A stretch of DNA of 64,000 bases from Apostichopus japonicus (taxonomy: Eukaryota > Echinodermata > Holothuroidea > Aspidochirotida > Stichopodidae), in the NCBI RefSeq assembly GCF_037975245.1, contig NC_092564.1:14883984-14947983 (forward strand). Reading direction: 5' to 3'. Below the pieces are notes generated by a model. That model ran no database searches. It saw only the letters and a list, made by a program, of their open reading frames with translations, and was not told where the DNA came from. This document shows, one piece after another, positions 21,072-64,000 of the stretch; the stretch's first letter is position 1, and every line of letters begins with the position of its first letter. The translations under genes were made by a program, and so were the position numbers.

Positions 21072-21810
21072 TAATATGAAAAAAGTCCCTTCTTGGCAAT
21101 AAAATATGCGATTGGGATGAATGTTTTACCTTGTGGTACAAAATATTTATAGCAATCTTTTGCAAAAAACAACATTCTCACTAACTAGCTATTCCAAAAA
21201 ATAGGAAAACAGTCCCTTCTTGGCAACGAAACATGCAATTGGGATGAATTTTTATCTTGTGGTACAAAATATTTATAGCAATCTTCTGCAAAAATCAACG
21301 TTCTAACTAACTAGCTATTCTATAAATAGGAAAACAGTCTCTTCTTGGCAATGAAACATGCGATTGGGATGAATTTTTTATCTTGTGGTACAAAATATTT
21401 ATAGCAATCTTTTGCAAAAAACAACATTCTCACTAACTAGCTATTCCGAAAAATAGGAAAACAGTCCCTTCTTGGCAATGAAACATGCGATTGGGATGAA
21501 TTTTTTATCTTGTCGTACAAAATATGTATAGCAATCTTCTGCAAATATCATAGTTATAACTAACTAGCTATTCTATAAATATGAAAACAGTCTCTTCTTG
21601 GCAATGAAACATGCGATTGGGATGAATTTTTTATCTCGTGGTACAAAATATTTATAGCAATCTTTTGCAAAAATCAACATTCTAACTAACTTGCTATTCT
21701 ATAAATATGAAAACAGTCCCTCCTTGGCAATGAAACATGCGATTGGGATGAATTTTTTACCTTGTCGTACAAGAAATTTATATCAATCTTCTGCGCAATC
21801 AACGTCTGTA
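21072..21810 (+). repeat. 126-bp satellite, six copies
   Basis: Six head-to-tail copies are marked by GATTGGGATGA, with GGGATGA at 21,114, 21,241, 21,366, 21,493, 21,619 and 21,745 (spacing 125-127 bp). Each unit contains AGTCCCTTCTTGGCAATGAA, TTGTGGTACAAAATATTTAT, AGCAATCTT and AACTAGCTATTC. Alternate copies share variants (CTTTTGCAAAAAACAACATT versus CTTCTGCAAAAATC), which suggests a two-unit higher-order expansion. Confidence 0.9.
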
Positions 21811-39167: not shown

Positions 39168-42152
39168 GCACACACATACCTTGGAAATCCTGTGCGTGCC
39201 ACTGGATTGTGATACCGCTACCAATTTCCATGCATTAAGATGAAGCTCCACGGCATAGGTATCAATTTGAATAAAACTGTCAGTAGGCTAAATTGTCAAT
39301 TGACAAAGACATGAGCCTGTTGGACCTCATTTAGATACTCTTTCACAAATATGACTGATAGGTGTGATCCGTTAGCTCAAAATGTCTGAACCACTACATT
39401 CACGGGCCCTGGACATTGGGGCCCCGGTTCAGTGAATCGACTGCCGCATATTTTGGTACGCCTGTGAGTGCTCAACTTCTTTTGTCAAAGGAACAGAATC
39501 GACTGTTATTTCACTCCGAATGTACAATTATATTTGTTTCACGTTGGTTACCTTCTCGGCACATTCTTTGAATAAACATTAATGAAACCAGTACTATACC
39601 CGACTATAGGGTGTAAACTGTTCAAACGGTAAAATAACTATGTGACACAGACCTAAACATGTGACTAGAGTTTACATGAAGGTTAACAGAATGCTTCTAC
39701 GGCATCTCCTGAATCCAAATTTCATTTGGATAGGTTGGCTTTAATTCTTTAAAATCCATTTCGATATTGCATCAATGTGTAACAATTTTGGTGGGGGAGG
39801 GGAGGGGCGGGGGGTTGTTGACTGGGTACAAATGTATTACGTTATAATTTTGGGAATGATAATGTAAACTGAAGAAACCATCTTTAGACAATTGAATGAG
39901 AACTAGACTGTATCGAAAGATACCGAAAGCGATCTTAAACGTATTGGTAAGAGGATAAGGTACATTCCCAGCTTAGGATGTATTACAACTTGTATATGCT
40001 CTCCTGCAATTAATACGGAGAGTGCATGGATTAATAGAGATATATTAAATATGTCTGAGGAATGATTGTATTCATGAGTGAAATGTGTGTTAATTGTGTG
40101 TATTTGTGTCTAATGATGAAGCTCAGAAAAGACGACCCAATCAGAATTTATGCTGTTCAAATTAGCCTACATTTTGGTTGGTTTATTCTTTGCTTATTAA
40201 TCAGTTCATTGCATAATTGCAACGAGCTACCTTAAAAATCACGTGCCTATGACACACTTAAACTGACCTCTCGAAATTCACTTTCCCCTCACAGTTCATA
40301 TACTCATGAAGAACAAAGTGTTTTTGAAGCAATTGTGCTTGGTGTGAGCTATACGTCTTTGTAAGTGTCCACTTTCTCTCAATGGGTTATGATAAAGTTA
40401 TGAGTTATGGTGCGGAAATTCTCTCAAAAATAGTTTCATTTGAGAATGCGGCAGTTAATGATTAGGCCTACTGATTCTACAAAGATAGGAAGCTGATTAA
40501 ATTTCGAAGTAACCGCGTATACACTAATTACGGACGGGGATAATTGTTTCGAAAATACTATAAACAATGATTTCAAGTGTTTTTTTAATTACTATTGAAA
40601 GTAATACACGGAAGTACATGTGTCACACTGTAGTGTACGTCAATGTATACTATAGTTGCTGAATTTAACAGAATGTCAATATTTACTTAATGGTGTGATA
40701 AAAGGTTCACTGCATAACTAACAAAGTCAGCCGAGGGAAGCGTATGAGCTTCGATCTATTGATACCATTACATTACGTTCATAGACGTTTAACGCGAAAC
40801 AAGAGTTCCACAATTTCGTCGGATACAATAACTAGAATATAAGAAACATCAGTATGATTTGTTAAACTTAATTGTTTATCTCTATGAAATCTTATGACGG
40901 CTGTTCTTTGAACCATGACATAGTAGATACACTTGAGCAAAAATCCGTTGGATTAGACTTTGGTAATCCTAAAGAACAGATGATCGGTGAGCAACAGCAG
41001 GATCCAGTAGGGTCATTAAAGGAACTCATCAATCTAACAAGAAAATCTTTTTTTTAATATGAATTAAGCCACGGTCTATGGATGTTTGTGTTGATATTTA
41101 TTGCTGAATAGTGTCGTATCGAATGCAGTAGAGGGGGTCATCCATTTTGGATCAAACATTTTATAAATATATCAACATGAGATGAAACTTTTACAGGTAG
41201 TAAAACAAAATTTTGTTTTTTATTTGTGGAGTCATAGTTAAATGTGTTATCGAAGCGACTGTATTATCCTCCATCTTCATTCTTGCCATCCGACGCCAGG
41301 AAAGATTTTTGACCTTGAAGTGCCGCTTGAAGTTCCCGAGTGATCTCATCACTGATTTATTCACCGCAACTTCAGGGAGGTGAATGTGGTAAGAGACAGC
41401 AACAGGCCAGTAGTATAGTAACATAAGGATTTGTTAATGTGTATGTGGTGCACTGCTGGCTGTATGTGACTGTTTGTGTACTTGTTAGTTTGTGTGTGTG
41501 TGTTTACTCAAGAAATGTAAGCAGGAAATAAAAATATAGTCCTTTTACATATTATTGATATAAAAAGTACACATTTTGTTCAAAACTTCGACACGCAACC
41601 GAGCAAACCTTTCAACATAGATTTGCTACTATGTGGACTTTACTATAGATTATTGCGAACAGGGATGGGAAAGGGTAAGTCATTCATCTCTTCCAGCTGT
41701 GTCTACAATAGGTATTGTAGTAAACAGACAGACAACGTATATAAACAGATATATATGTTAAAACGTAAGATCAGCCATATTAATATTTAGTAGTTATTGA
41801 TTATTTATGCTCTCAGATCATCTAATCCGCGGCCAACCAATCGTTAACCAGTTTACCATACAAACATTTGAGATTAAAGGGAAGTTTGAGATAAAGCGTC
41901 AAACTTTTGAGATAAACCGCCAAAAATTCCTCAACAACGTCATACGTGTCCTGAAACCGCAATTTTCTTCTCACACCCGTCGTCCTAGAGTAACATTGGG
42001 TTGCTACACCCCCCCCCCCCATTGTTACCCCTCTAGTTGGCGAGTGAAATGTCCAATTCATGCAACGGCGCATTTAATGACACGAGAAGGATAATTCGAC
42101 TTATTTTGTCATTCTGGCAAACACGGCATTGCTTAAAACTGTTTCATTTCAA

Positions 42153-42182
42153 CGACCTTTGACCTTTGAAACTATGACGTCA
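42153..42182 (+). promoter_or_regulatory. DR1-like and CRE-like sites upstream of gene A
   Basis: CGACCTTTGACCT (42,153-42,165) is, in reverse complement, two AGGTCA-type half-sites one base apart, as bound by nuclear receptors. Ten bases later lies TGACGTCA (42,175-42,182), the full cAMP-response-element palindrome, 219 bp before the start codon. Both recur upstream of gene B. Function is inferred from motif match only. Confidence 0.35.
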
Positions 42183-42393
42183 TAAATCAAGGCTTAATAA
42201 ATCCGTCACCGTGTGTTCAGAGGCTCGAAGAAATCATCAGTCAATATCTGTCACTCGCGGTATCTGTATTTTACTTTTCAATAAAGAGATTATTCGTTTT
42301 GTTGTAGAAATTAACTTACGAGTAACTATCTGACATGGTAAGGATCTTTTTAATCCAGGAATCATCTGCTGACATAACACGACCTGTTTAGTT

Positions 42394-43603
42394 ATGGGGA
42401 GGAGAGGGAAAATCTGTTTGTTTGGAACCATTGCTGCCAGTCCAATTCAAATAATGTTTTTCCTTGTCAATTTAGCAAACTTATCTATGCTTTGTTTCGG
42501 AGAGGAAACTATTGTGATTGATAAAGTATGGAAGGAACCTATAATCCGATCAGAGGGACAAACAGTGACCTTACGCTGTATAAGTAATGGTAATGTCACA
42601 ATCTTCCGAATAAAGAACGACAGTCAGGCAAAGATTGTGATGAACTCAACGCTGCTTGAGATTTACACTGGCAGTTATATTTTCAACTCCACGAAGAGTG
42701 GATCAGACATTATTAATGACTTAACTATTAGAGATGTCACCAGGGAATTTAACGGTTCCATATTTCATTGCGTGGACCATATTACGTTCATTCCACAGGA
42801 GCTTACATTGATAGTGCTATACAGTCCAAGACGTGAGTATCCACAGTGTACATCCAGCTCTACTTATCCAATATATTTCACTGATCAAATTGGTGAACCT
42901 TTTGATATAACCTGTATCTCAGAAGAAGGAAATCCAAGAATAAACCTCGCCTTACAAAACACGTTGACATTGATAAGCAATTCGTCCGTTACTCTTGGAG
43001 AGAATAAAACTCATCGATATGTTGAATTGAATGCTAAACTCGATAGCAAATGGAACAACAGTATGTTTTATTGTTATGTTGTGCAATCTTCTCCGGGAAT
43101 GGTTAATTACTTTGCTCATTGTTCATTTGGTCCAATACAGTTGGTGGACGAATTAATTGTGATTACGAATATATCGAATGTGTCATTTAAAGAAGGAAAG
43201 AAGATTATGTTTTCTTGTAAGAGTAATGTTGATGCTGCTTACAAACAATGGAACATAGTAGATATTCCAAAGCATGTTTCGTACTCCAGTTCAAATGATT
43301 CAGATTATATTTACTTAGAAATAGATGTTAGTAATTTGACAAAAGATACCCTCATAACATTAGCCTGCTTTGTGTCTTATCGTGGTAGAAACTTGACCAC
43401 GAATATAACGGCCTATGTCGAAACTTCTGGAAGTGAATTCATCTTTACGTTGCCTATTTTGGCAGTCAGTGTCTTTCTGATTGTGCTCTTACTGGTCATT
43501 GCTAAAGCGTGTGGAAGACAGCTACATTGTGAGGCCCGATGTTACAGAGCAAGAACCAGAGATCTGCGTACAGTAAACAGGACAGGAACACAAAATGGCC
43601 GAC
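42394..43603 (+). CDS. Gene A exon 1: signal peptide, three Ig domains, TM
   Basis: A single 1,210-bp exon encodes the whole ectodomain, the membrane span (LPILAVSVFLIVLLLVIA) and the basic stop-transfer stretch. About 14 N-glycosylation sequons are visible (for example NVT67, NST84, NST98, NGS120, NKT204, NIS259, NLT314, NIT337), so the ectodomain is heavily glycosylated. Its donor is CGAC/GTGAGT at 43,604. If intron 1 is kept, the frame runs 23 more codons to a TAA at 43,672-43,674, giving a 426-residue kinase-less form. The start is the first ATG, followed directly by a hydrophobic leader. Confidence 0.9.
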
Positions 43604-46600
43604 GTGAGTTTATGATATTTTATCCCGTAGGATGGATGAGTTATAGACTTATAGTAAACACTACATCTTTATAAACATTGTTAACATCTTATATTTCTAA
43701 TTCCAAACTGCTGTTTTCTATAAGTTTGTAAGTCTGAACTTAGGCTAAGCCTTTGTTGTGCTAACAACAAGCCAGCAATATTTGAACTCATGTGTATGTA
43801 TTCATGGACACAAATTTGTTGTAACGCAGCCTACTGTGATTAAAAAGCACATTGATTGCTATTCATAAAATTGATGGAGTAAATCATACCAAACACCTTT
43901 TCGGTTTCCATGCAATGGACATAACATCAGTGATCCAATTAAAATAGGTAAGGTCAGCGCGCGAAAATGAAATATTTACTGCTTTTTCTATAACAAAAGA
44001 TAACTATATTACCTTAAATGTATGATATATTACTATGTATAACCATATTTTGTGTTCGTAATTGCGTAAGGTAATTTCGAGGCGGAAGGAGCAAGGGGAG
44101 GGATTGGAGTCGGTGCAGCACGAAAAGAAGTGTTTACCCCAAAATTATAACCGCTCTGTAAATTTCCATATTCCTTCACAGATGAAGAGAATATACCCGT
44201 AACACGTCAGCAAACACAGAGGTAGAGCCTTTGATGTTCAATACTTTACATTACTAGGCAAGTCTCTCAATGTCTCTACTTCATCAAGGCACCTTTTGTA
44301 TGGAGGGAGACAAAACGAAGTGGACTTCATTAATTTGGTGATACAATTTCAAAAATTCAAGACCTCCATTGCCTCATTATACAGTTCGAACTTTCCTCAC
44401 ACTGAAAGTTTCAGTCCAGAATATGGATAGGTCTTCCGATTGTAAAGAAGTGACACACACATTGTATATTTGAATATGACAATTGTTTGTATTGCTTTCA
44501 TCCCAGGCTAATCATATTCCTGTGTTCTTTATGATTTTCCTCCAAGGTCAGTTCTTCCCAACTTGCCAGATGCGATTAATACTTCACATCATGAAAGAGA
44601 AATCGAGACATGTAGGTTTATGAAAATTATTCATTAACGTACAGTTAATCTCAAGTGGCCAAAGTCATATTGTACAAAAAGTTTCATATGGGATGTATGA
44701 AACATTTTTTAAACGACTTTCTAATGAAAAAAGAGAAACTATATAACGCGTTGTGATTTTGAATGTGTGAAGCTCATTCTAGGAACTAGTGACTAGTCTA
44801 CAGATAGGAATGTTCAAATAAACATTTTCAACGTTTTCTCGGCGAAGGACAATTGTGGAAGGAAAAAACGAAAAATAAAAACTAACAAATACAAAGCTGA
44901 AAGATATTCGTGTAGTCAGGGTAGTGAGGTGTCATTATGTATATAATATCTTGCTTTCATTACTTTTGACATGGAATCATAAATACATAGGTAAATTATT
45001 GACAAAGACTGTGGAATTACAGCGATTAAGAACTAAAGTTGATAGGATCGTTTTCGGTGTTACCTAAATTAATGGCATGTTCAACTTACGTGATGTGTCC
45101 TATTGAGTGAATAGTGACAATCTGTGTGGGTATCAATGCTATTGGTGGCATTAAATCATATACGATTATTGCAATGTCACTTATTAAACATGTAGGCTAT
45201 GATGTTCAAAGGTTTCATTCTAGGAATAATGAAATGTTGCTACATTTATTCTACCAGAGAAGATGACCATGTGCCTGTTTGCTTTTCTTGTAGACTACTC
45301 TACAGTGACAACAGACACTCCGGGAAGTAATCGGTTATTTAACGAAGACGATATTTGTCTTATATTAAAGATGAAGACCGGGACACTTTACACGAGGTGG
45401 ATGGGGACAATACCTGTCTCTCTTGGGGTCACCAAATGTGTAGTCCTAACAACCCTCTCTGATGGTAAACTGATATATAATTGATTTATCTGATTTCAAT
45501 AACTAGAGGTATAGAATTAGATTTGTATACTACACAAAGATGATTAGGGCCCGGGTGCGATATTTTATAATTAGTTACATTTCAATTCCAAGAAGCATTA
45601 ACACTGCACGGTTGGGGCATTGTTGAGCACCACTTTACTATTTTACAGCCAGTTTGGTGCTCCTTAACAGCAGTATATATACAAATGAGACTGCCCCACC
45701 CACCCCCAGAGTACAGGGCTAAGGCAAGTAATATTTCAACTGATTTTCTATGGCATGCTTCCGTGAAGAATAATACACGAGCTACAAAATATGCAGATAT
45801 TGAAGATATATTTTCTGCCAACAAATATAGAAGTGAGTCACAGATCTTCAAAGTTGTCACCTATTATAACTCACGTTCACTTAAACTAAGGCATATTACC
45901 AATATTTTCACTTTCTTCCTCCTATCCGTAGATATAGGCATTCACTGGGATAAATTTGTGAAAACGTCTTTAGACCTACCGTTGACGAATCATGTCACGA
46001 AAATTGAAGGAATTGGGATCGTATATAGTGAGTGTTTATTCTTTCTATTTAAGTTTTTGCTTTTCTTTTCTGCATCCCGATCTTCATATTCAGAGATGTG
46101 TGAAGAAGAGAAACATGTAATGCTTCTTGCATGCCGGGAAAAAAATCATCAGGCCTGATTCAGGGCTGGTGTTGGGGCGTGTGGCTACAGCACCGTGACC
46201 TGAGGTCAATGATGGTGGCATGAGAAATATGGAGTGGGCCATAATATGGGGAAAAGGATAGTGTCTTCTCATTTTCGTAATATAACTAACGAAAATGTGG
46301 GTGCAATTTGTTGGCTTGTCATATGAAACATCTACACATGCAACATGTTACTCTTGGTAACTCCACAAGATCTAATTGTATAATGCAAATTAACTTCTAA
46401 TCTATCTCTATCTCTTCTATCTCTTCTTTGTAGATCAAATAAATATGATAACTGAGCATCTAGCGTGTAAAACGTTACATAATTACTTGACCTTTGACCC
46501 AACCTCACGACAGGGAAGTGGGAGGAACGTCACGTCAGTGCGAGATGTTATGAAACATTTGTCAGGAGTACTTGAAGGAATGGAAGTCATTAAATCCTAC

Positions 46601-49600
46601 GGGGTGAGTTTCGTCCGTGACTGACAAAATATAGAGTTGAGCTGGTTTGGTTTCGCTGCAAACTCAGAAATCAATCTATGGTTCCGTATACAAACGGATA
46701 TGTAGATGCTGAATGTGTCTCTTTATGAGTTTTAGATCTTGCCTTGTGATTAAATTGTGTCTAACCTTGCGGGAATACTTGTTAAGATTAAACGTAGTTG
46801 TTGATTTGGTAGAGCAAAGGGCTCGTACCTCCGAGGTCCCTGTCTCAAATCCTGTTCTGTTCGAAAATTTATTTACCCGGTTCGAATTTCGAAGTCAGTT
46901 CTCCGTCGTTCATTTAGTTTATAACATTAGTAGACATTTCTTTTGTTAAAGAGCCATGGGTCGAGTTTCGATGTATTTTTTACTACATATCTATGATGTG
47001 ACCTTCCCCCAGCTTATACAACACAGTAAACATAGACTATTAGTTGTTTACGATATAGAAACCGGTGTCATGATCTCTATTGTTCTTAACAGCTTAAATG
47101 ATCTTTAGTTACTAATTAAATATCAGTCTAAAATTTATCGGTGAAAAACTATCGTCGACTTTATACATCTTCACATCTCCATCACTGATTTTGTATTTAT
47201 TCCCCCAATAGCTCCGTTGAAATGCAGTATTGATTTATATCACTTCCCGCCGGGCCATCGTATCATTTTATTTATGTTTCCTCGATATTGCTGGGGGGAA
47301 AAACGACGATTTATGTCATTATTGGCAGTCATGAAATTCATTCATTCATGAAATCTATTTCATTCGGTCACAGTTTCTTCATCCTTGCTTCTCAACTAAG
47401 AAGATTTTATATACCAAACAGGGACAATGTAAATTGTATGACTTCTGCCTTGCCGAGGATGCACCAACGATTTGCGCCCTCAAGAAATCAGAGGTAAATC
47501 TGTTGTTTCCCTTCATTGTTCTGCTGGTCCTAAGTGCGTCTCATTGTTCAGACGAATGAGTCGAGTCTTAATAACATCTCCTTACATAATGTTTGGCTAA
47601 GGAAATATGTTTCAAGTAAAGGAAGTAGCCTGAAAAGAAATATGAAATTATTCATTCATAATCAGGGACGACGGGCCAGGCGGGTACATGGGGCACATGC
47701 CCTTCCAGTTTGAGGGGATAACCTCAAAAATGCTCGTTTTCATAAATTAATTCTCGTTTGTAATCAAATTCCCCCTTTTTTAAACTTGTATGCGTTCTTT
47801 ATATTATTAAATTATTTGCTGAAAAGAAAAAGAAAGAATTTAAATGTACCCGTTTGCTGACGAACATATACAAATAATGTATAGCATTGCTACGAATGAA
47901 CGGAGGATTTATTTTTGGTTGGAAATCTGTCACTCTTCATTGATTTAAAATTGTTTATGTCTATGATTCCGGTGAAATGTAAGTTGAAAGAACAGCTGTT
48001 TTTATTTCATTGTTTCTTCCTTTAACATTCTTTTCTTTCTTTTTTACACCTGTTCTTACTTCTTGTTTTGTCTGTAGATGAAATCAGTGACGTTGAACCA
48101 ATTCGCTCCAGAAGCTTTCTACCAAAATGAATATTCAGCAGAGAGTGATGTCTGGTCAACAGCTGTTGTTATATGGGAACTTATTTCAGCTGGTGAAAAA
48201 AATTCAAATAAAACTATCATGAAAAATAAAAATACACACGCTTTGTAAATATTATATCGATCAAATAGTAGGCGAGCATGAAGAAGTAAAATCAGCATCT
48301 TCGCGTATACCTTACTTTGCCGTAAGACCAAATGCTATAATGTGGAAGTATATCAATCCTATACAATATAGTGATTTTTTCCAATTAGATATAAACGCTG
48401 CAAATTTATACTGCGAGGCTATTAATTCAGATTCAGATTAATACAGATTCAGTGTAATGTAACTATACATTACTACTAAAGTGTTTCTTTGATTGGCTCT
48501 CAATTCTGTGTAATATATTTGATAGAAGTGTGTTAAGTTTACACCCGGGGAACAATTCCATTAAAGCCAACATATTTTACAATGGTAGGATGAGAGTAAT
48601 CATTTAGAAACATTAAATGTCCACCAACAACGTTAGGATATCAGTATTTGTTTGCTTTTTCAGGTAATAAACCTTTCCCAATTAATGAGGAATACAAGCC
48701 AGGGGATGTCATTCCAATGCCAAAGATGCCATGGCCGGAAAAATATCTTCAGTTAAGGTAGAGTTATAGGAATTATTAGCATTAAATGTCGGTTCTATAC
48801 TGGCAATTTCTAGGAACTAAACCATTACTTCATATGTCTGGATTTGCACCTCTTTGAATCATTCTTAAAACTTCTGTTATCACTTACTGGTTGCTATAAT
48901 TTAAGTCGACGAATTACATGAACATAAATCAACGAATTTAGGAAATGAACCCACAGGGATAGAATGTCATATCTCTCCGCAGTGGATTAGTTGATAGTGA
49001 GGATATAAGGTTCCCTAGACTGTACAGCATCATTCAGATTTGAACACGATTTATCGAAATCTGGTCTCCTTCACCAACCACCACCTCTAACATCGTGGTC
49101 CCGGTATACTCTATACTTTTGTCTCCTTATTTGGAGGTCAGGTGAGACATTTGCTGAAGAATGTAGAATGACTTCTTCGACTTTCGAATGACTTTGTTAT
49201 TGTTCCACAGAAACACGCTTTTATTTGAATGCTGGAGTGAAAACATGTCCCTTCGACCATCTATACACCATCTGAGGGATTCTTTTAAAACGGTAATTAT
49301 TTCAGATTAAAACAGTAAACAGTATTTAAGGAAACTATACTTGACATCCTTGCCCGTTTTATCCTGTCTGCATGGCAGAAACGTTCGTACTAATATCACG
49401 GTGATATATCAATGTGACGTTATCAAACCCAGAAAATATAAAGAAGACAATGTCTGCTACAAAGTAGATATAACATATTTTCCGTCTGTTTTATTTTTCT
49501 CGACAGATTTTTGATAAGTTAATAGACAACAGCTTCTATGAGATACCAGTATCATCTTTGTATACACGGATGATTTCTCCAACTGACGACTGCGTGGAAG

Positions 49601-49638
49601 GGAATGATAGAAGAAAAACGCCTCAAGTTAGCAATTGA
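42394..49638 (+). CDS. Ig-domain receptor pseudokinase, gene A (intact)
   Basis: Predicted type I receptor of 764 residues, encoded by exons 42394-43603, 44182-44221, 44547-44611, 45294-45464, 45932-46027, 46434-46603, 47374-47493, 48078-48192, 48664-48757, 49211-49292 and 49507-49638 (2,295 bp, all GT-AG, all phases consistent). Signal peptide about 1-36; three Ig-like domains paired by Cys62/126, 174/227, 275/325; membrane span about 350-371; tyrosine-kinase-like domain about 453-721. The fold is shown by LFNEDDI (453-459), the hinge around NMITEHL (531-537), APE 634-636, SDVWS 647-651, CW 701-702 and RP 709-710. Catalysis looks lost: the glycine loop reads KMKTGTLYTRWMG, the beta3 Lys is Thr491, HRD is HPC (587-589), the loop Asn is Lys594, DFG is DFC (607-609). 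The tail has FYEIP and YTRM, candidate SH2-docking tyrosines. It most resembles Ig-type receptor tyrosine kinases; I cannot assign a named family. Confidence 0.9.
45294..45464 (+). CDS. Gene A exon 4: kinase N-lobe, degenerate
   Basis: 171 bp, 57 codons plus one base. It opens YYSTVTTD (adjacent tyrosines in the juxtamembrane segment), then LFNEDDICLILKMKTGTLYT and RWMG, where a kinase would have LGxGxFGxV, and CVVLTTL, where it would have VAVKTL. The ATP-anchoring lysine position is Thr. The acceptor is TTTTCTTGTAG; an upstream ATG at 45,263 lies in the intron and is not the start. Confidence 0.88.
46797..46862 (+). mobile_element. tRNA-like SINE piece in gene A intron 6
   Basis: GATTTGGTAGAGCAAAGGG (A-box region), GCTCGTACCTCCGAGGTCC and a decayed B box (TGTCTCAAATCCTG). 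The same insertion is present at the same intron position in unit B with a better B box, so it predates the duplication. Confidence 0.55.
47374..47493 (+). CDS. Gene A exon 7: catalytic-loop exon (HPC ... DFC)
   Basis: 120 bp, phase 0 at both ends. It encodes FLHPCFSTKKIL, then CKLYDFCLA. Compared with FVHRDLAARNVL and KISDFGLA, the proton-acceptor Asp, the Mg-binding Asn and the DFG Gly are all replaced, while the Asp of DFx remains. By hand count, 8 of the 10 nucleotide differences from gene B in this exon are silent, so the altered protein sequence looks conserved by selection. Confidence 0.9.
47664..47740 (+). repeat. Old repeat piece related to the 690-bp element
   Basis: GGACGACGGGCCAGGCGGG followed by GGGCACATGCCCTTCCAG and AACCTCAAAAATGCTCG resembles the left end of the 38,478 element in order and composition. 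It is shared with unit B at 59,394-59,462. Confidence 0.4.
48078..48192 (+). CDS. Gene A exon 8: APE to SDVW helix
   Basis: 115 bp encoding MKSVTLNQFAPEAF ... ESDVWSTAVVIWELISA. APE (634-636) and the SDVW core of helix F, whose Asp stabilises the catalytic loop, are preserved. The TGG codon of Trp650 is at 48,153-48,155; the equivalent codon in gene B is TGA. Confidence 0.9.
49507..49638 (+). CDS. Gene A exon 11: C-terminal tail
   Basis: 132 bp from acceptor CTCGACAG to the TGA at 49,636-49,638, 43 codons. After IFDKLIDN it contains FYEIPVSSLYTRM: YEIP and, nine residues on, YTRM, which matches the YxxM consensus for PI3-kinase p85 SH2 domains. A polar tail follows. Confidence 0.85.
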   Translation: MFDKLIDNSFYEIPVSSLYTRMISPTDDCVEGNDRRKTPQVSN

Positions 49639-49920
49639 TATGTTACAAAAGCTTGGCTTTCGTTAAGCATTCCGGCACTTCTTGTATGCAAAGAATTAAA
49701 TAGACGCATACCGTAACTACGTAAAACAGTATGATTAACTATTACTTCCATGTGTTACAAACAGGAAACAGGCAAACATGCTCAACAGTCACGGTGACTT
49801 ATGAACGTAATTCAAGATTCATCATTCATACTTATTATTTATACTCGATTTTCAAAGACGTCTCAAAAAGCTTTGCAAAGTGGGAAAGGAAATGGGCAGA
49901 TTCTACGCAATTGGCGGTAC

Positions 49921-49960
49921 GGCTGGTTCATTTAACCAGGGTCCCTAATGTCCAGGGGCC
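49921..49960 (+). other. Paired hairpins downstream of gene A
   Basis: Two short stem-loops in series, about 285 bp after the stop: GGTT..AACC, then CCCT-AATGTCC-AGGG. Unit B has the same pair in more perfect form (61,864-61,903: TGGTTCA-T-TGAACCA and CCCCT-AATGTCC-AGGGG). They may lie in the 3' untranslated region. Confidence 0.4.
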
Positions 49961-52900: not shown

Positions 52901-53517
52901 GGATCCAGCAGGGTCAAGGAACTCATCCATTTAGCAAGAAAATCCGTTTTTAATATGAATTATTATCAAAGGATTAGAAAAATGTGTAGCAAGCCACGGT
53001 CTATGGATGTTTGTGTTGACATTTATTGCTGAATAGTATCGTATCGAATGCAGTAGATGGGGTCATCCATTTTGAATCAAACATTTTTCAAAAATATCAA
53101 CATGAGATGAAACTTTTATAAGAAATAAAACAAATGTTTGTTTTTAAATGATGGAGTTAGTTAAATGTGTTATCGGAGCGACCGTATCATCCTCCATCTT
53201 CATTCTTGCCATCCGACGCCAGGAATGATTTTTGACCTTGAAGTGCTGCTTGAAGTTCCCGAATGATCTCACCACTGATTTATTCACAGCAACTCCAGGG
53301 AGGGGTATGTGGTAAGAGGCAGCAACATGCCAGTAGTATAGTAACATAAACATTTGTTAATGTGTATGTGGTGCACTGCTGGCTGTATATGTGACTGTTT
53401 GTGTACTAGTTAGTTTTTGTTTGTGTGTTTATTCAAGAAATGTAAACCGGAAATGAAAAATATAGTTCTTTCACATATTATTGATATACAAAGCACAGAT
53501 ATTGTCCAAAACTTCGA

Positions 53518-53547
53518 CATGCCACGTGGCATGGCTCGGTACCGAGC
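53518..53547. repeat. Two abutting perfect palindromes, unit B only
   Basis: CATGCCACGTGGCATG (16 bp, 53,518-53,533) is followed without a gap by GCTCGGTACCGAGC (14 bp, 53,534-53,547). Unit A has only GACACGCAACCGAGC at the matching place (from about 41,590), so both palindromes arose by one local change in unit B. The first contains an E-box CACGTG. Confidence 0.8.
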
Positions 53548-54075
53548 ATACCCTTCAACGTAGATTGCTACCATGTGGACTTTACTATAGATCATAGCGA
53601 ACAGGGCTGGGATAGAGTAAGTCATTCATCTCTTCAGCTGTGTTTACAATAGGTATTGTAGTAAACAGACAGACAACGTATAAACGTAAGAGCAGCCATA
53701 TTAATATTTAGTAGTTATAGCTTATTTGTGCTCTAGGATCATCCTAGCCGCGGCCAACCAATCGTTAACCAGTTTGCCAAACAAACATTTGAGATTAAAG
53801 GGAAGTTTGAGATGAAGCGTCAAACTTTTGAGATAAACCGCCAAAAATTCCTCAACAACGTCATCCGTTTCCTGAAACCGTAATTTCCTTCTCACACCCG
53901 TCGTTCTAGAGTCGACATTGGGTTGCTACACCCCCCCCCCCCCATTGTTACCCTTCTGCTTGGCGGGTGAAACGTCCAATTTATGCAACGGCGCCCTTAA
54001 TGACACTGGGAGAATAATTTGGCTTATTTTGTCATTCTGGCAAACACGGCATTGCTCAAAACTGTTTCATTTCAA

Positions 54076-54105
54076 TGACATTTGACCTTTGAAACTATGA
54101 CGTCA
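54076..54105 (+). promoter_or_regulatory. DR1-like and CRE-like sites upstream of gene B
   Basis: TGACATTTGACCT (54,076-54,088, a DR1 with one altered half-site base) and TGACGTCA (54,098-54,105), 222 bp before the start of gene B, equivalent to the pair in unit A. Part of this conservation is simply recent duplication. Confidence 0.35.
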
Positions 54106-54319
54106 TAAATCAAGTCACAACAAATGTGTCACCTTATGTTCAGAGGGCCCACAGAAATCATCAGTTAATGTCGGACACTTGGCGGTATCTGTATCTTAAT
54201 TTTCAATAAAGAGAGTGTTCGTTTCGTTTTACAAATTGACTTTACGAGTCACTATCTGACATGGTAAGAATCATTTTGATCCAGGAATCATCTGCTGACA
54301 TTACACGAGCTGCTTAGTT

Positions 54320-55538
54320 ATGGAGAGGAGAGGACACATCTATTTGTTTGGAACCATTGCTGTCAGTCCAATTCAAATAATGTTTTTCCTTCTCAATTTA
54401 GCAAACTTATTTATGCTTTGCTTCGGAGAGGAAACTATTGTGTTTGATCAAGTATGGAAGCAACATATAATCCGATCAGAGGGACAAACAGTCACCTTAC
54501 GCTGTATAAGTAATGGTAATGTCACAATCTCCCGAACAGAGACACTAAAGAACGACAGTCAGGCAAAGATTGTGATGAATTCAACGCTGCTTGGGAATTA
54601 CACTGGCAGTTATATTTTCAACTCCACAAAGAATGGATCAGACATTATTAATGACTTAACTATTAGAGATGTCACCAGGGAATTTAACGGTTCCTTATTT
54701 CGATGCGTGGACCATGTTACGTTCAATTCAGTGGAGCTTACATTGATGGTGCTATACAGTCCAAGACGTGAGTATCCACAGTGTGCATCCAGCTCTACTT
54801 ATCCAATATATTTCACTGATCAAATTGGTGAGCCTTTTGACATAATCTGTATCTCAGAAGAAGGAAATCATAGTATAAACCTCGCCTTACAAAACACGCT
54901 GACATTGATAAACGGTTCGTCCGTTACTCTTGGAGAGAATAAAACTCATCGATATGTTGAATTGAATGCTAAACTCGATAGTAAATGGAACAACAGTATG
55001 TTTTATTGTTACGTTGTGCAATCTTTTCCAGGGATGGTTAATTACAGTGCTAATTGTTCATTTGGTCCAATACAGTTTGTGGACGAATTAACTATCATTA
55101 CGAATACATCGAATGTGTCATTTAAAGAAGGAAAGAAGATTATGTTTTCTTGTAAGAGTAATGTTGATGCTGCTTACAAACAATGGATCATAATATATAT
55201 TCCGAAACATGTTTCGTATTCCAGTTCTAATGATTCAGATTATATTTACTTAGAAATGGATGTTAGTAATTTGACAAAAGATACCCTAATAACATTAGCC
55301 TGCTTTGTATCTTATCGTGGCAGAAACTTGACCACGAATGTAACGGCCTATGTCGAAACTTCTGGAAGTGAAGTCGTCTTTAAGTTACCTATTTTGGCAC
55401 TCATTGTCTTTCTGATTGTGCTCTTACTGGTAATCGCTAAAGCGTGTGGAAGACAACTACATTGTGAGGCCCGAGGTTACAGAGAAAGAACCAGAGATCT
55501 GCGTACAGTAAACAAGACAGAAACACAAACTCGCCGAA
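54320..55538 (+). CDS. Gene B exon 1: signal peptide, three Ig domains, TM
   Basis: 1,219 bp, 406 codons plus one base, fully open. Same architecture as gene A, with roughly 51 replacement and 23 silent codon changes plus the ETL insertion (hand count). Changes cluster in the leader and the first Ig domain. Read-through into intron 1 gives a 427-residue form with a different last 21 residues. This exon alone could make a membrane-anchored, kinase-less receptor even though the full gene is broken. Confidence 0.88.
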
Positions 55539-58500
55539 GTGAGTGTATGATATTTCATCCTGTAGGATTAGGAACAGCCTTAGCAAACGCTACATCTTCA
55601 TAAATACTGTTAACATCTCATATAATTCCAAACTGTTGTTTTCTGTAAGTTTGTAAGTCTGAACTTAGGCTAAGCCTTTGTTGTGCTAACAACAAGCCAG
55701 CAATATATTTGATCTCATGTGTATGTATTCTTGGACACACATTTTTGTAACGCATCCTGCTGGGATTAAAAAGCACATTGATTGCTATGCATAAAATTGA
55801 TGGAGTTAATCATAACAAACACCTTTTCGGTTTCCATGCAATGGACATAACAACTTTGATCCATGTAAAATAGGTAAGGTCAGCGCGCGAAAATGAAATA
55901 TTTACTGCATTTACTATGACAAAAGATAACTATATTACCTTACATGTATGATATATTACTATGTATAACCATATTTTGTGTTCCTAATTGCGTAAGGTAA
56001 TTTCGAGGCGGAAGGAGTAAGGGGAGGGAGTGGAGTCGGGTAGCACGAAATGAAGTGTTTACCCCAAAACTATAATCGCTCTGTAAATTTCCATATTCTT
56101 TCACAGATGAAGAGAATATACCCGTAACAAGTCAGCAAACACAGAGGTAAAGCCCTCGATATTCAATACTTTACATTACTAAGTTAAACTTGGCGAGTCT
56201 CTACTTCATCAAGGCACCTTTTGCAGGGAGGGAGTCTCAGGGAAACATAACGAAGTGGACTTAATTCATTTTGTGATACAATTTAAAACTCAAGCCCTCC
56301 ATTGCCTCATTTTACAGTTTGAGCTTTCCTCAAACTGAGCGTTTCAGTCCAGAATATGGATAGTTCTTCCGATTTTATAAGTTATTTAAGGCCTTTTTTT
56401 GTATTGTTTTCATCTCAGGGTGAATCATATTATCATTTTCTTTATGATTTTCCTCCAAGGTCAGTTCTTCCCAACTTGCCAGATGAGATTAATACTTCAC
56501 AAGATGAAAGAGAAATCGAGACATGTAGGTTTATGAAAATTATTCATTAACGTAAAATAAACTTCAAGTGGCCAAAGTCATATTGTACAAAAAGTCTCAT
56601 ATGGGATATATGACACAATTTAAAACGACCTTCTATTGAAAAAAAAAGAAAAACAACTATAACGCGTTTTGATTTTGAATGTGTAAAACTCATTCTCGAG
56701 GACACTGTCTGAGGAACTTCAGATAGAGATGTTCAAATAAACATTTTGAATGTTTTCTCGCCAAAGAACAATTATGGGGAAACAAACGAAAAATAAAAAC
56801 TAACAAATTCAAAGCTGAAAGATATTCGCGAAGTCAGGGTAGTGCATGAGGTCTGATTATGAATTTTATATCTTGATTTCATTACGTTTGACATGGAATC
56901 ATAAATACATCGGTAAATTATTAACAAAGACTGTGGAATTACAGCGATTATGAACTAAAGTTAAAAGGATCGTTCTCGATGTTACCTAAACTTATTGAAT
57001 AAACTGGCATGTTCAACTTACATGATGTGTCCTATTAAGTGAATAGTGACAATCTGTGTGGTTTTCAATGCTATTGGTGGCAATAGATCATATTAGATTA
57101 TTGCAATGTCACTTATTAAACATGCATGATGTTCACATCATGTTTCATTCTAGGAATATTGAATTGTTGCTACATTTATTCTACAAGAGAAGATGACCAT
57201 GTGCCTGTTTACTTTTCTTGTAGACTACTCTACAGTGACAACAGACACTCCGGAAAGTAATCGCTTATTTAACGAAGACGATATTTGTCTTATATTAAAG
57301 ATGAAGACCGGGACACTTTACACGAGGTGGATGGGGACAATATCTGTCTCTCTTGGGGTCACCAAATGTGTAGTCCTAACAACCCTCTCTGATGGTAAAC
57401 TGATATACACAATCGATTTATCTGATATCAATAACTAGAGGTATAGAATTAGATTTGTATCCTACACAAAGATGATTAGGACCTGGCTGATGTGATATGT
57501 TATAATTAGTTACATTTCAATTCCAAATCCAAGTATTACACTGCACGGTTGGGGCATTCATAATAATTTACTATTTTACAGCCAGTTTGGTGCTCCTTAA
57601 CAGCAACAAACAAATATGACCCCCCCCCCCCCATCCACTATGACATGCTTCCGTGAAGAATACTACACGAGCAATAAAATATGCAGATATTAAAAAAAAA
57701 ATTGCCAACAAATATTGAAGTGAGTCACAGATCTTCAAATTTGTCACATATGTTACATTGTCTGAAATATCGTTCAGTCATGGTATATCGTTTCGAAAGG
57801 ATTTACTCACGGGCACCTAAACTAAGGCATATTACCAATATTTTCACCTTCTTCCTCGTTTCCGTAGATAGAGTTGTTAAACACAGAGGCATTCACTGGG
57901 ATAAATTTGTGAAAACGTCTTTAGACCTACCTGTGACGAATCATGTTATGAACATTGAAGGAATTGGGATCGTATATAGTGAGTGCTTATTCTTTCTATT
58001 TCAGTATTTGTTTTAACTTTCAGCCGTTCTAACTTTATTCTACACCCGATCTTAATATTCAGAGATATGTGAAAAAGAGAAACAAGTTATGCTTCTTGCA
58101 TGCCGGGAAGAAATCATCAGGCCTGATGAAGGCTGGTGTCAGGGCGTGTGGCTACAGCACCGTGACCCGAGGTCAATTATGGTGGCACGGGAAATATGGA
58201 GAGGGCCAAAATATGGGGAAAAGGATAGTGTCTTCTCATTTTCGTAAAATAATTTACGGAAATGTGGGTGCAATTTGTTGGCTTGCCATGTGAAACAACT
58301 ACACAGCAACATGTTTCTCTTGGTAACTCCACAAGATCTAAGTGAATAATGCGATTTAACTTCTAATGTAACTATCTCTTCTTTGTAGATCAAATAAATA
58401 TGATAACTGAGCATCTTGCGTGTAAAACGTTAGATAATTACTTGACCTTTGACCCAACCTCACGACAGGGAAGTGGGAGGGGCGTCACGTCAGTGCGAGA

Positions 58501-58756
58501 TGTTATGAAACATTTGTCAGGAGTACTTGAAGGAATGGAAGTCATTAAATCATACGGGGTGAGTTTCGTACGTGACTGACAAAATATATAATTGAGCTGG
58601 TTTGGTTTCGCTGCAAACCAGTAATCAATCTTGGTTCCGTGTACAAACGGATATGTAAATGCTAAATGTGTCTCTTTATGAGTTTCAGATCTTGCCTTGT
58701 GATTAAATTGTGTCTAACCTACGTGAACGCTTATTACGATTACAATAATTGAATGT

Positions 58757-58824
58757 AGTTGTTGATTTGGTAGAGCAAAGGGCTCGTACCTCCGAGGTCC
58801 GTGGTTCAAATCCCGTACTGTTCG
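58757..58824 (+). mobile_element. tRNA-like SINE piece in gene B intron 6
   Basis: GATTTGGTAGAGCAAAGGG, then GCTCGTACCTCCGAGGTCC and B box GTGGTTCAAATCCCG at tRNA spacing. It is the orthologous position of the 46,797 piece in unit A and better preserved there at the B box. Not a functional tRNA: the stems do not pair fully. Confidence 0.6.
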
Positions 58825-59101
58825 AAAATTTATTTACCCGGTTCGAATTTAAAAGTCAGTTCTCCGTCGTTCATTTAGTTTATAAAATTAGTTGACATTC
58901 TTTTGTTAAAGAGCCATGGTTCGAGTTTCGATGTATTGTTTACTACATATATATGATGTGACCTTCCCCCAGCTAATACAACACAGTAAATATAAACTAT
59001 TAGATGTTTACGATGTAGAAACCGGTGGCTAGTAAAACACCCGACGATTACTGTCATTATTGGCAATCATAAAATCTATAAATTATTTCATTCGGCCACA
59101 G

Positions 59102-59221
59102 TTTCTCCATCCTTGTTTCTCAACGAAGAAGATTTTATACACCAAACAGGGACAATGTAAGCTGTATGACTTCTGTCTTGCTGGGGATGCACCAACGATT
59201 TGCGCCATCAAGAAATCAGAG
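59102..59221 (+). CDS. Gene B exon 7: catalytic-loop exon (HPC ... DFC)
   Basis: 120 bp, phase 0. It encodes FLHPCFSTKKIL and CKLYDFCLA, identical to gene A at all the altered catalytic positions despite ten nucleotide differences in the exon; the only residue changes are Glu to Gly and Leu to Ile beyond DFC. Confidence 0.9.
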
Positions 59222-59816
59222 GTAAACTTGTTGTTTCCCTTTATTGTTCTGCTGGTTCTATAAGTGCGTGTCATTATGCAGACGAAATTTGTCGAGTCTT
59301 TATAACATCTCCTAACATAATGTTTGGCTAAGGAAATATGTTTCAAGTAAAGGAAGTAGCCTGAAAAAAAATATAACATTATTCATCCATAATCAGGGAC
59401 GATGGGCCAGGCGGGCACATGCCCTTCCAGTTTGGGGGGAAACCTAAGATGTGCTCGTTTTCATAAATTACAACAGCTTGTCGTTTGTAATCAAATTAAT
59501 TCCTTTTTACCATTTCGTTCGTTCTTTATGTAATTTAAGCTGCTCTTTTGCTGAAAAAGAAAGAAAGAGATGGAAAACAAAGTGTACCCGTTTGTTGACA
59601 AACATACAAATAATGTATATTATTGCTACGAACGCACTGAGAGATAATTTTTTGTTGGAATTCTTTCATTCTTCATTGATTTATAATTGTTTATGTTTAC
59701 GATTCCGGTGTAATGCAAGTTTAAAGAACAGCTACTCTCATATCATTGTTTCTTCCTTTGTCTTTCTTTTTTTTACTTTTTTTTACACCTGTTCTTACTT
59801 AATGTTTTGTATGTAG

Positions 59817-59931
59817 ATGAAATCAGTGACGTTGAACCAATTCGCTCCAGAAGCTTTCTACCAAAATGAATATTCAGCAGAGAGTGATGTCTGATCTACG
59901 GCTGTTGTTATATGGGAAATTATTTCAGCTG
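59817..59931 (+). CDS. Gene B exon 8 with in-frame TGA
   Basis: 115 bp, acceptor TATGTAG and donor GTGAAA, same length as in A. Codons 1-25 match A exactly in protein (APE retained). Codon 26 is TGA (59,892-59,894) instead of TGG; the frame then continues STAVVIWEIISA to the donor. A single G-to-A change explains it. Confidence 0.88.
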
Positions 59932-60162
59932 GTGAAAAGCAACCAAATAAAACTATCATGAAAATAAAAATACACACGCTTTGTAAATATTATATCGATC
60001 AATAGTAGGCGAGAATAAAGAAGTAAAATCAGCTTCTTCGCGTATACCTTGCTTTGCCGTAACACCCAAAGCTATAATGTGGAAGTATATCGATGCTATA
60101 TATACAATATAGCGATGTTGTCCAATTACATATAAGCGCTGCAAATGTATACTGCCAGACTA

Positions 60163-60510
60163 TATAGGAGTCGTACTCGAATTAATCGTGGAGGTACTCA
60201 CGACTGTAAATTGAAGATCCACGAATTTGATCCCAGTACGACTTCAGTTTATCATATATTTGGCTTTTGATCCGGCGACGGTAACCTTCCAAACCCACAA
60301 GTTAATTCAGAGGTTAAGAATATTGATAAAGTAAAATATACTAAAGAGAGCTCGCTGTGTTTGGCACGACTCGATTAGCTGTCTTGATAACAGGAAGTAT
60401 GTTGTTACTAGGATAGTTATGACCACTGCTATCTGCACAAATCAACGAAGTTATAATGTTTAAGTAGTAAGTGAATGCTTCCTTTGCAAAGGCTTGTTTT
60501 ATTTTCAAAC
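60163..60510 (+). repeat. Unit-B-specific block with nested hairpin
   Basis: Sequence here has no counterpart in unit A, which has a different block of about 160 bp (48,421-48,580). It opens with an imperfect hairpin: AGTCGTACT (60,169-60,177) pairs with AGTACGACT (60,235-60,243), and TCGTGGA (60,186-60,192) with TCCACGA (60,218-60,224). This looks like a small foldback insertion in intron 8. Confidence 0.55.
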
Positions 60511-63290
60511 ACCTTTTACAAAGGTAAGGTGAGAGTAATAATTTAGAAACATTAAAGGTTCAACTACTGCAACGTAAGGATATCAGTATTGGTTTGCTTT
60601 TTCAGGTTATAAACCTTTCCCAATTAATGAGAAATACAAGCCAGGGGATGTCATTCCCATGCCAAAGACGCCATGGCCGGAGAAATATCTGCAGTTAAGG
60701 TAGCTTTATAGGGATTATTAGTTACAAATGTCGATTCTATACTGGCATTTCCAGGAACTCAACCATTACTTCATATGTCTGGTTTTACACGTTTTTGTAT
60801 CATTTCTAATACTTCTGTTATCACTTACTGGCTGCTACCATTTTTTGACGACGAATTACACGAACATTAATCAACGAATTTAGGAAATAAACCCACAGCT
60901 GATAGAATGTCACTTTCCGCATTGGAGTAGTGAGAGGAGAAAAGGTTCCCTATACTGCTTAGCATCATTCAAATTATACACGATTTATCTACACCTGGTC
61001 TCCTTCCCCGACCCCACCTTTTACTGTCTTACATCATGGTCCAGGTATACTTTATTTCTTTTGTCTCCTTTTTTGAGGTCAGGTTAGACATTTGCTGAAG
61101 AATTTAGAATGACTTTTTCGACTTTCGAATGACTTTGTTATTGTTCCACAGAAACACGCTTTTATTTGAATGCTGGAGTAAAAACATGTCCCTTCGACCA
61201 TCTATACACCATCTGAGGGATTCTTTTAAAACGGTACTTATTTTAGATTACAACAGTAAACAGTATTTAAGGAAACAACTTGACATCCTTGCTCGTTTTA
61301 TCCTGTCTGCATGGCAGAAATGTTCGTACTTATACTATCACGGTGATATATCAATGTGACGTAATCAAACCCAGAAAATATGAAGAAGACAATGTCTGCT
61401 ACAAAGTAGATATAACATATTTTCCCTCTGTTTTATTTTTCTCGACAGATTTTTGATAAGTTAATAGACAACAGCTTCTATGAGATACCAGTATCATCTT
61501 TGTATACACGGACGATTTCTCCAACTGACGACTACGTGGAAGGGAAAGAATGATAGAAGAAATACGCCTCAATTGAGTTAACAATTGATATATTACAAAA
61601 GCATTGCCTTGCTAAGCATTCCGGCACGTCTTGTATGCAAAGAATTAAATAGACACAAACCGTAACTACGTAAAACAGTATGATTAACTATAACTTCCAT
61701 GTGTTACAAACAGGCAAATATGCTCAACAGTCACGGTGACTTATGGACGTAATTCAAGATTCATCATTCATACTTATTATTTATATTCGATTTTCAAAGA
61801 CGTCTCAAAAAGCTTTGCAAAGTGGGAAAGGAACTGGGCAGATTCTACGCAATTGGCGGTTTGGCTGGTTCATTGAACCAGGGCCCCTAATGTCCAGGGG
61901 TCTCATATACAAGCTTGATCCCAACCTTTTGTGCCAAAGGATATAACGACCGCATGTCAGTCATGTTTCTGCACGAAAACTTGAATGAGACCCAACATTG
62001 TCTATACGTTCTGTTGTATTTCATTAACAACTGATGTTTCTAGTTGACAACCCACTGTGGGTGTCAACTGCTTGCACTCAAGACACTTGGACAGTGCATC
62101 CGACCTGCTTCGTGAGATAGTAAATCACATATCTTCGGCAATCTTTACTGGCGATGCCTTGCCCTAAAAGATTAAACCACTTATTTTATACACGGAAGGA
62201 CGTAATATCGGCGATTATCTGCAGAAAAAGCGCCCTGAAATATTTCTTTTAGATTTCGATTTCCCCGAGTCCTTCTAAGTACTAATACCGGTGAAGTTTT
62301 CATCAATTTTGTGTTACATTTAATTATACAATGCTCTGATAGTTACACACATAGACTTGCGGAAACTGCAATCTCACGCATCCTCTGTTGACGACAGGAC
62401 CTTTCTAATTTAGGCGGGAAGATATTAGAGACATAAACAAATAAATTAAATCTTCTGATATTTAAAGCTTTGAATTAACTAAGTAGCGTATTGTAATTGT
62501 GTTTATTATACCATTGTGTGGTAGCTACTTATCCTTTGTATCGGGATCTATTTAATACCGCAAATAACCTTCGAACTACAAATGTGGGAAGGGGGACATG
62601 GCTCCCTCTCTCGCTGAATTGACGCTCATGTTAACCATTTTACCGCACACACAACAGTCCATCGTTCTTACACTACAAGGTGCGCACAGTGACCAGTAAT
62701 TGAGTTGTATGGAAAGGAACGGATTCTGTCACAAAAGTAATTTAAGTTTAAGAAAACAGTTTATCTATTATTGGCGACTATAGCAAATGAAGGTGAAGAT
62801 TGTTTTCATTTATCATGATATATGTCTTTTAGAATTTATATAAAATAGCTTGTTAGATGCTAAGGGCGCCCATGAGATGAGATATTGTCGAAACTTTTAT
62901 ATCAAAATGTCTACTTTTTGTAAATTCAGTGTCTTGGCTTTTCGTCAAAATTTGAAATCGCAAAATACGATGATCATGTATTTTTTTTGCAAACAACCAC
63001 TTTTGTCGTGTTCTCCACGACAAAACTGAAACTACTGTCAACTCGTATTAGAAATGGGAAAATACTTCATCTCTTTTGTTTTTAAATTACAAAGCAGGTG
63101 TCTCAGGTGATGGGCGACTATATTCGCTAAGGACACGCCTGAATATACAATGATAAACTTTTATGCTGCTAGTACACCCGACTATAGGTCTCCAGACAGC
63201 ATCTCCTGCATCCAAATTGGATATGGATAAGTTGGTGTTGATACGTAAATAAATAATTAAATGTCACAGAATGTACGTTGAGACTTATAT

Positions 63291-64000
63291 AGCAATTACA
63301 ATTTCACTGGCAGCAAAACCTCGAGGAAGACACGAGGAACAGTAAAAAAAAAAAGGGGGGGTATGGCGATGCTATGAAGAGAGGTGTTTAACCATAGTGA
63401 AATGGGGTAAATAACACAATATGGATGAACATACAGTTTTATACAGTGTAGAAAGTATATGTCAGTAACAATATGATTTAAGTGAGGTACTCTGGCCTGA
63501 AAAGTTCCCAAGATTTGAATACATATACTCTTTCGATGAGAAATGTTTCCTCATTCAATGTCTTGATATCTATAACCTAGGCATTTCATTGGTATTGTTA
63601 TCTTTTTTAAATGTTAAGTTATAGTAACAAATGGTATTCGTCATAATTGGGGAATGATAATATAAAGCAACTCTTAATCATTTGAATGAGAAGATACCTT
63701 CAGAGAAAAATTCCAAAAGCGATCTTCAACTAATTGGTTTAAAGTGAATAACACATTCCCTGCTTAGGATGCATGTAGTGCAGCTTGTAGGCCCTCCTGC
63801 AATTAATACGGAGAATGGTTTGATATGGGAGAAATATTAAATATGTTTGAGGAATGTTTCTATTCCATAAATGAATTGCGTTCGGTATAACAAGAATCGT
63901 CCAGGTCAAATCTAAGCATTCTGGTTAAATTTGCATTCATTCCATTGTACAGTGTTTGAGATATTGACAGTTGAAGTTGCCACCTTTCGTACCAAACGGT
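63291..64000 (+). repeat. Start of a third tandem unit (C)
   Basis: From about 63,300 the sequence repeats the start of unit B (50,955 on): AACAGT...GGTGTTTAACC, AATGGGGTAA, AAAGTTCCCAAGATTT, TTTCATTGGTATTGTTATCT, GGGGAATGATAATATAAAGC, GCAATTAATACGGAGAATGG. The window ends before any exon of a third receptor gene. Confidence 0.85.

Follow-up and report, generated by a model that had tools for sequence, protein, structure and literature searches.

What is encoded by the tandem array of receptor genes that runs off the right edge of a 64,000-nucleotide stretch of sea cucumber DNA, and what might such an array do for the animal? The stretch, referred to here as the window, is C4:14883984-14947983 of the Apostichopus japonicus assembly (671,581,487 bases in 35 contigs), and a preliminary description had seen in it a tandem array of receptors with immunoglobulin (Ig)-like domains and an enzymatically dead kinase. 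We searched the whole assembly and read 14 further pieces of the array, giving a contiguous read of 204 kb in which the numbering of the window is carried on rightwards beyond 64000. Two kinds of unit are interspersed there: K units, in which an ectodomain of three Ig-like domains is joined to a pseudokinase, and T units, in which a K-like ectodomain is followed by a membrane span of unrelated sequence and a tail that bears tyrosines. We judge the chances to be evenly balanced that the array consists of paired recognition receptors of the cell surface, with a phosphotyrosine arm, a non-catalytic pseudokinase arm and one homogenised ectodomain.

Ten units with a common ectodomain and two kinds of tail

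A genome search with the ectodomain places ten units on one strand of C4 between 14.926 and 15.073 Mb, a span of about 147 kb. Their order is K1 K2 T1 K3 T2 K4 T3 K5 K6 T4, with ATG codons at 42394, 54320, 68845, 84790, 105191, 123016, 135611, 161922, 174770 and 188317, respectively, and the tandem units are about 84-97% identical. Kinase exons are present in all six K units and were found in none of the four T units. Within the window, self-comparison delimits K1 (40139-51646) and K2 (52051-63996), both on the forward strand, collinear, about 12 kb each and about 87% identical along their longest matching stretch. The proposal of at least three units of about 12 kb is therefore upheld in the window for two of them, the third copy there being a flank repeat of about 250 bp (63627-63881); the extension to the right that had been suggested brings the number of units to ten, and the next after K2 is the kinase-less T1. 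As a description of the whole array, pseudokinase receptors applies to six of the ten units and fails for the four that carry the tyrosine-bearing tail instead.

Tandem units as alike as these are generally hard to assemble, and a single locus, collapsed or multiplied in the assembly, had been raised as a possible source of the array. This now appears extremely improbable: the ten units are distinct sequences with two unrelated body types, the 204 kb contain no N, and the assembly was built from HiFi and Hi-C data, provided that the genome is the one in the description given by PMC10344927. Frames resembling the reverse transcriptase of long interspersed nuclear elements, identified by eye, lie between receptor units at 66404-67597 and 196924-198591.

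K and T ectodomains are near-identical within this one cluster and the cytoplasmic parts differ. Each T unit consists of one open frame of 473-474 amino acids, intact in all four cases, in which the ectodomain leads into the unrelated membrane span and a tail of about 100 residues. All four tails have tyrosines in the contexts QNYNID, HTYTAP or HTYTTP, LDYEEI, and VAYEPC or VVYEPC, and two of the four add VAYDMI. We take LDYEEI and VAYDMI to match the consensus of the immunoreceptor tyrosine-based inhibitory motif (ITIM), and the YEEI of LDYEEI presumably matches the Src-SH2 consensus. The ectodomain of K1 and K2 (residues 37-350) has eight cysteines, with 14 N-glycosylation sequons in K1 and 19 in K2. 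Pfam Ig matches for K1 and K2 all fall under the curated cut-off, and a profile of nine ectodomain sequences finds VEGFR2, NCAM and antibody light chains as its best PDB matches, with E about 1e-5; these features together agree with the three N-glycosylated Ig-like domains noted earlier. Structure prediction for the two window sequences gave a mean predicted local distance difference test score of 36, too low for fold comparison.

The likeness between the two kinds of unit is confined to an island. When K1 is scanned in 100-base windows, the mean identity between K and T is 83-95% over 42194-43393; on the left it is 37-51% over 41694-42093 and 71% in the window at 42094, and on the right it falls to 62% at 43394 and then 38-49% to 43893, so that eight of the ten windows outside the island stand at 37-51%. 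From this profile the island of about 1.2 kb common to K1 and the four T units (42190-43400, forward strand) takes in some 200 bp upstream of the ATG and the ectodomain as far as the membrane span. Close to the left boundary of the island, at 42175-42182 on the forward strand, is TGACGTCA, found in nine of the ten units and different in K3, which we take to be an octamer resembling the cyclic-AMP response element. The shared proximal DNA suggests that K and T genes may be under shared control.

There are signs that this ectodomain has been exchanged between K and T units. We defined a diagnostic site by the agreement of at least four of the five other K units and at least three of the four T units, which yields 36 sites. 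At 42192-42313 (forward strand) K1 is T-like at 18 of 19 such sites, the remaining one being neither, and its flanks are of the K type (K-like at 8/10 sites over 42121-42167, with one T-like and one neither, and at 7/7 from 43083 on); no site separating K from T lies between 42313 and 43083. This putative conversion tract is mainly upstream of the ATG, and the exchange tests used are simple ones. In a shuffle test on 327 polymorphic sites, K3-T2 ranked first with a matching run of 33 sites that was reached in 0/2000 shuffles, and T3-K6 narrowly missed the correction threshold. We read these patterns as probable traces of repeated partial gene conversion between units.

The three Ig-like domains (D1 to D3, counted from the outermost) differ in how they change. 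Among eight sequences (K1, K2, K4, K5 and T1-T4; K3 and K6 omitted), distinct non-synonymous and synonymous variants stand at 25:7 in the leader, 99:24 in D1, 47:33 in D2 and 43:20 in D3, the excess in D1 being significant by Fisher's test against D2 (p=0.0013) and against D2 and D3 together (p=0.0018). Pairwise ratios of non-synonymous to synonymous differences per site (pN/pS, seven sequences) are 1.11-1.54 in D1 and 0.30-0.42 in D2. The faster non-synonymous change in D1 and the exchange of ectodomains lend indirect support to the recognition role that the preliminary description had proposed. A variable D1, three N-glycosylated Ig domains and a tandem array would also be features of homotypic adhesion or allorecognition molecules that are diversified between individuals and have no immune ligand, and the weak profile matches to NCAM and VEGFR2 fit such molecules; the signalling-type tyrosines of the T-like tails favour signalling over pure adhesion, and we find this explanation highly doubtful.

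A pseudokinase drawn from a genome-wide family

The K1 gene (42394-49638, forward strand) has 11 exons with AG/GT internal borders and closing phases, and it is fully open over 764 amino acids that run from a hydrophobic leader through three Ig-like domains and one membrane span to the kinase-like domain. Exon 1 (42394-43603), assigned from Pfam matches, cysteines and sequons, encodes the signal peptide, the ectodomain, the transmembrane span and the cytoplasmic start; exons 2 (44182-44221) and 3 (44547-44611), placed by their AG/GT borders and phase, are juxtamembrane. The N-lobe begins in exon 4 (45294-45464), where the glycine loop is degraded and the beta3 lysine is replaced by threonine (KCVVLTTLS). 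Exon 5 (45932-46027) covers the helix C region and is 15 nt shorter than its counterparts in K2-K6, which start 15 nt earlier, and exon 6 (46434-46603) extends from the hinge to helix E. The catalytic loop and activation segment lie in exon 7 (47374-47493), where FLHPCFSTKK...DFC replaces HRD...N and DFG. Exon 8 (48078-48192) keeps the APE and SDVW motifs, exons 9 (48664-48757) and 10 (49211-49292) form the C-lobe, with the RPS motif kept in the latter, and exon 11 (49507-49638) encodes a C-terminal tail with FYEIP and LYTRM, then a stop.

The second gene of the window, also on the forward strand, has its exons at positions matching the first and likewise shows AG/GT at its internal borders. 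Exon 1 of K2 (54320-55538) encodes the ectodomain and transmembrane span, exons 2-6 lie at 56107-56146, 56460-56524, 57224-57394, 57868-57978 and 58389-58558, and exons 7-11 at 59102-59221, 59817-59931, 60606-60699, 61152-61233 and 61449-61588, the last interval being defined by its alignment with exon 11 of K1, and the K2 frame stops within it. Eleven exons are thus present in both genes, as had been claimed; K1 is complete and K2 is disrupted by an in-frame stop in exon 8 that turns SDVW into SDV followed by a termination codon. K5 is open through exon 10 and its exon 11, like that of K2, terminates about nine residues before that of K1, while exon 1 frameshifts occur in K3, K4 and K6.

The kinase-like domain of K1 matches PF07714 with 99.7 bits and retains APE, SDVW and RPS. 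Every catalytic motif that we compared is altered: the beta3 Lys to Thr, HRD to HPC, the catalytic-loop Asn to Lys and DFG to DFC, bearing out the earlier view of a dead domain. Thr also takes the place of the beta3 Lys in the seven paralogous loci for which an N-lobe exon was read (L017, L019-L023 and L037), in an alignment made by eye. K1 therefore has none of the beta3 Lys, HRD Asp and DFG of a catalytic tyrosine kinase, and it has by sequence what defines a receptor tyrosine pseudokinase, namely an ectodomain, a single transmembrane span and a kinase fold from which the catalytic motifs are missing. The kinase domain of the K proteins should be non-catalytic, judging from these residues.

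The loss of these motifs extends across the genome, well beyond the array. Exon 7 has at least 140 genomic matches, mainly on C12 and C16, of which one has an internal stop; the query was 40 residues from a C12 paralogue, and 150 of the 246 candidates were scored, so these counts are lower bounds. In 40 of the 140 matches, picked by hand down the ranking and read by eye, HRD Asp is absent from all (HPG in 35, and NPG, HPV, HPI, SPG and HPS in one each) and DFG is absent from all (DFC in 32), figures to be read with the fact that the query is itself HPG and DFC, which tilts the recruited sample towards dead members. As a control, DFG and HRD Asp are both present at 13/13 ordinary PF07714 places. 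In a further set of 13 paralogous loci, chosen by their matches to the K1 kinase, DFC occurs in every one, with HPG in 12 and HPA in L020. Since the HPG/DFC loss is kept across the family, the dead motif is widely conserved and not the outcome of recent decay within the array. The idea of a pseudokinase multiplied in tandem is correct in that the family has expanded, and mistaken in that the dead kinase comes from a large genome-wide family and is not a local product. A tree of about 40 residues sets 48 family exons apart as one group from 13 DFG-bearing controls with support of 0.85, a weak tree given the short region and controls that do not form one group (L021 and L030-L036, near-duplicates or incomplete, were omitted). 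Elsewhere, kinase exons with HGD for HRD and an intact DFG occur on C17, C21, C18, C19 and C22 (L078-L082), apparently in tandem clusters.

Could these genes be growth or regeneration receptors, acting as dominant-negative forms or co-receptors in signalling of the FGF type? Published accounts describe 38 copies of Fgfr in A. japonicus, mostly activated in intestine regeneration (PMC6018497), and a tyrosine-protein kinase receptor family that is expanded and clustered (PMC5638244), and the K genes might be part of that expanded set. Compared with solved structures, the C-lobe finds FGFR chains among its best matches. The score to FGFR is only about 60 bits, however, and the best 60 PDB matches (58-69 bits) are EGFR, FGFR, CSK, BTK and FES, at similar distance and with no receptor class singled out. 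The nearest intact kinase in the genome, among the matches listed, is 27% identical to the K kinase, and nothing in these matches points to orthology with a known receptor kinase. Fast change in D1 and exchange of ectodomains would moreover be unusual in a growth-factor receptor, and we consider a role of this kind doubtful. The main-text passages of PMC5638244 and PMC6018497 on these expansions make no mention of pseudokinases, and our findings suggest that the published 'Fgfr' and 'tyrosine kinase receptor' counts may include catalytically dead genes.

How the two arms might work, and what speaks against a pair

The ectodomain search returned 87 rows by hand count, 14 in the array and 73 elsewhere, mostly on C11 and then C19. 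Six relatives that we read, on C11, C19 and C23 in clusters separate from the C4 array, are single-exon three-Ig receptors with tyrosine-bearing tails that vary from gene to gene; their ectodomains are 24-33% identical to that of K1 and retain the D2 and D3 cysteines, and L028 is without the D1 pair. They resemble K in the ectodomain and differ from it in the kinase, no kinase exon match being present in the 3-5 kb read around each of the six. A pseudokinase gene on C18 is multi-exon with a different Ig-containing front, and L037, a kinase-like gene within the C11 cluster, has no three-Ig exon in the roughly 7 kb read upstream. When the places of ectodomain and kinase matches were compared by eye no second fusion of the two was seen, which is no proof of absence. 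K therefore looks like a T-like front fused to a pseudokinase back. One three-Ig receptor at C11:18.42 Mb (L027:1193-3379, reverse strand) has a tail with many tandem repeats of about 28 residues that contain DQELYLVP-like tyrosine motifs, which may be a natural multi-site docking tail.

In a paired-receptor array K and T, interspersed over ten units, would display nearly one three-Ig ectodomain, held alike by exchange between units, and would probably be governed by similar proximal control DNA. SH2 proteins would dock on the phosphorylated tyrosines of the T tail, with LDYEEI, common to all four, as a candidate site. The K protein would bind the ligand of T and tune it as a non-catalytic scaffold, an allosteric partner or a competitor; it might also serve as a decoy, as had been proposed. 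We infer that the two kinds are co-expressed, share a ligand, act in an immune context and have opposing outputs. The fuller form of the proposal, in which echinoderms evolved paired receptors independently, with a pseudokinase regulatory arm, a phosphotyrosine T arm and an ectodomain that conversion continually re-homogenises even as the outer Ig domain diversifies, is one that we rate as somewhat less likely than not.

The main rival is that T is the working family and K a by-product, which would have arisen long ago when a T-like ectodomain became fused to a pseudokinase gene, would have been multiplied by unequal exchange and would now be mostly dying, conversion being incidental. Four of the six K genes (K2, K3, K4 and K6) are disrupted and two (K1 and K5) are open, against four open T genes of four, and the wide spread of T-like ectodomains outside the array without another visible K-type fusion points the same way. 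This comparison of two in six with four in four is a small sample, K1 is fully open and K5 is open up to its early-ending exon 11. Kinase exons 2-10 are equal in length over K1-equivalent borders in all six K units, their ratio of non-synonymous to synonymous substitution rates (dN/dS) is 0.21-0.69, below one, in all 15 K pairs (values that take in the broken copies), and the pseudokinase is conserved genome-wide. On balance we regard the by-product explanation as rather unlikely.

Several observations nevertheless tell against a working pair, beginning with the broken copies within the dN/dS values and the tilt of the exon 7 sample given above. K5 has lost the first D1 cysteine, and with four K genes broken the K arm may be decaying. 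In the T tails T2 and T3 carry Cys in place of the VAYDMI tyrosine, and a canonical immunoreceptor tyrosine-based activation motif (ITAM) is absent from the four tails examined. Tested against site numbers, D1 has a ratio of 1.14 (p=0.70), which is not above neutral, so that relaxed constraint explains the pattern no worse than diversifying selection does; in D3 pN/pS is 0.28 for K-K, 0.59 for K-T and as high as 1.18 for T-T comparisons. Only three of the 45 pairs in the shuffle test pass correction at 0.05, K3-T2 and two K-K pairs. Trees of the whole cassette and of its 5' half cluster T1-T4, with K1 adjacent, from which K-T exchange appears to be partial; in the 3'-half tree, which is weakly supported, T1-T4 do not cluster.

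Three features apart from the receptor genes were recorded. Left of the array, a short reading frame on the reverse strand (35840-36049) contains FFGRHGARTP, which we take to resemble an acid-phosphatase signature. Tandem repeats lie at 14136-14692 and 21064-21805 of the window, with offsets stepping by near 60 and 126 bases. Contig C29 (31,219 bp) contains several COX1 pieces with TGA codons and is probably stray or duplicated mitochondrial DNA.

Comparison with known receptor systems

Paired receptors with converted ectodomains are already known from vertebrate immunity, and KIR and LILR are among the vertebrate paired receptors. Receptor tyrosine kinases of the FGFR, VEGFR and PDGFR classes resemble K in combining an Ig ectodomain and a single membrane span with a tyrosine-kinase fold, but they are catalytic, whereas K is without the catalytic residues and shows no specific affinity to one class in the solved-structure matches.

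Human receptor pseudokinases act without catalysis, through scaffolding and hetero-dimerisation, according to the account in PMC13259870, and by analogy the K back would do likewise. The two share a single-pass architecture, a kinase fold and altered catalytic motifs, and PTK7 and the RORs have Ig domains as well. EphA10 and EphB6 alter the beta3 Lys, HRD Asp and DFG together in the motif table of PMC13259870, and in that comparison, which is one of motifs only, none of the eight human pseudokinase families has an HPx catalytic loop or DFC, unlike the K family. Family size is a further difference, with at least 140 exon matches in one genome. With the HPG/DFC family, a farmed animal supplies well above one hundred natural versions of a single receptor pseudokinase, and with so many variants the question of what receptor pseudokinases do becomes testable.

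The literature search returned nothing on an HPG/DFC pseudokinase family or on sea cucumber paired receptors in the material it covered, and no echinoderm case was found among papers on paired receptors, judged by titles and the openings of abstracts. Siglec-11/16, named paired receptors for their ectodomain gene conversion and differing signalling (PMC5701461), and CEACAM1/3 (PMC5112662) resemble the array in their near-identical Ig ectodomains, differing cytoplasmic parts and ectodomain exchange, as far as those two accounts describe them. They differ from it in that the tails of the vertebrate pairs are of the ITIM and ITAM type, whereas in the sea cucumber the K arm is a pseudokinase and the host is an echinoderm. 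Should K and T prove to be a working pair, they would represent an independent origin of the paired-receptor design, in which a dead kinase as one arm would be a new solution. Siglec-11/16, as described in PMC5701461, is the closest parallel among the systems that we compared.

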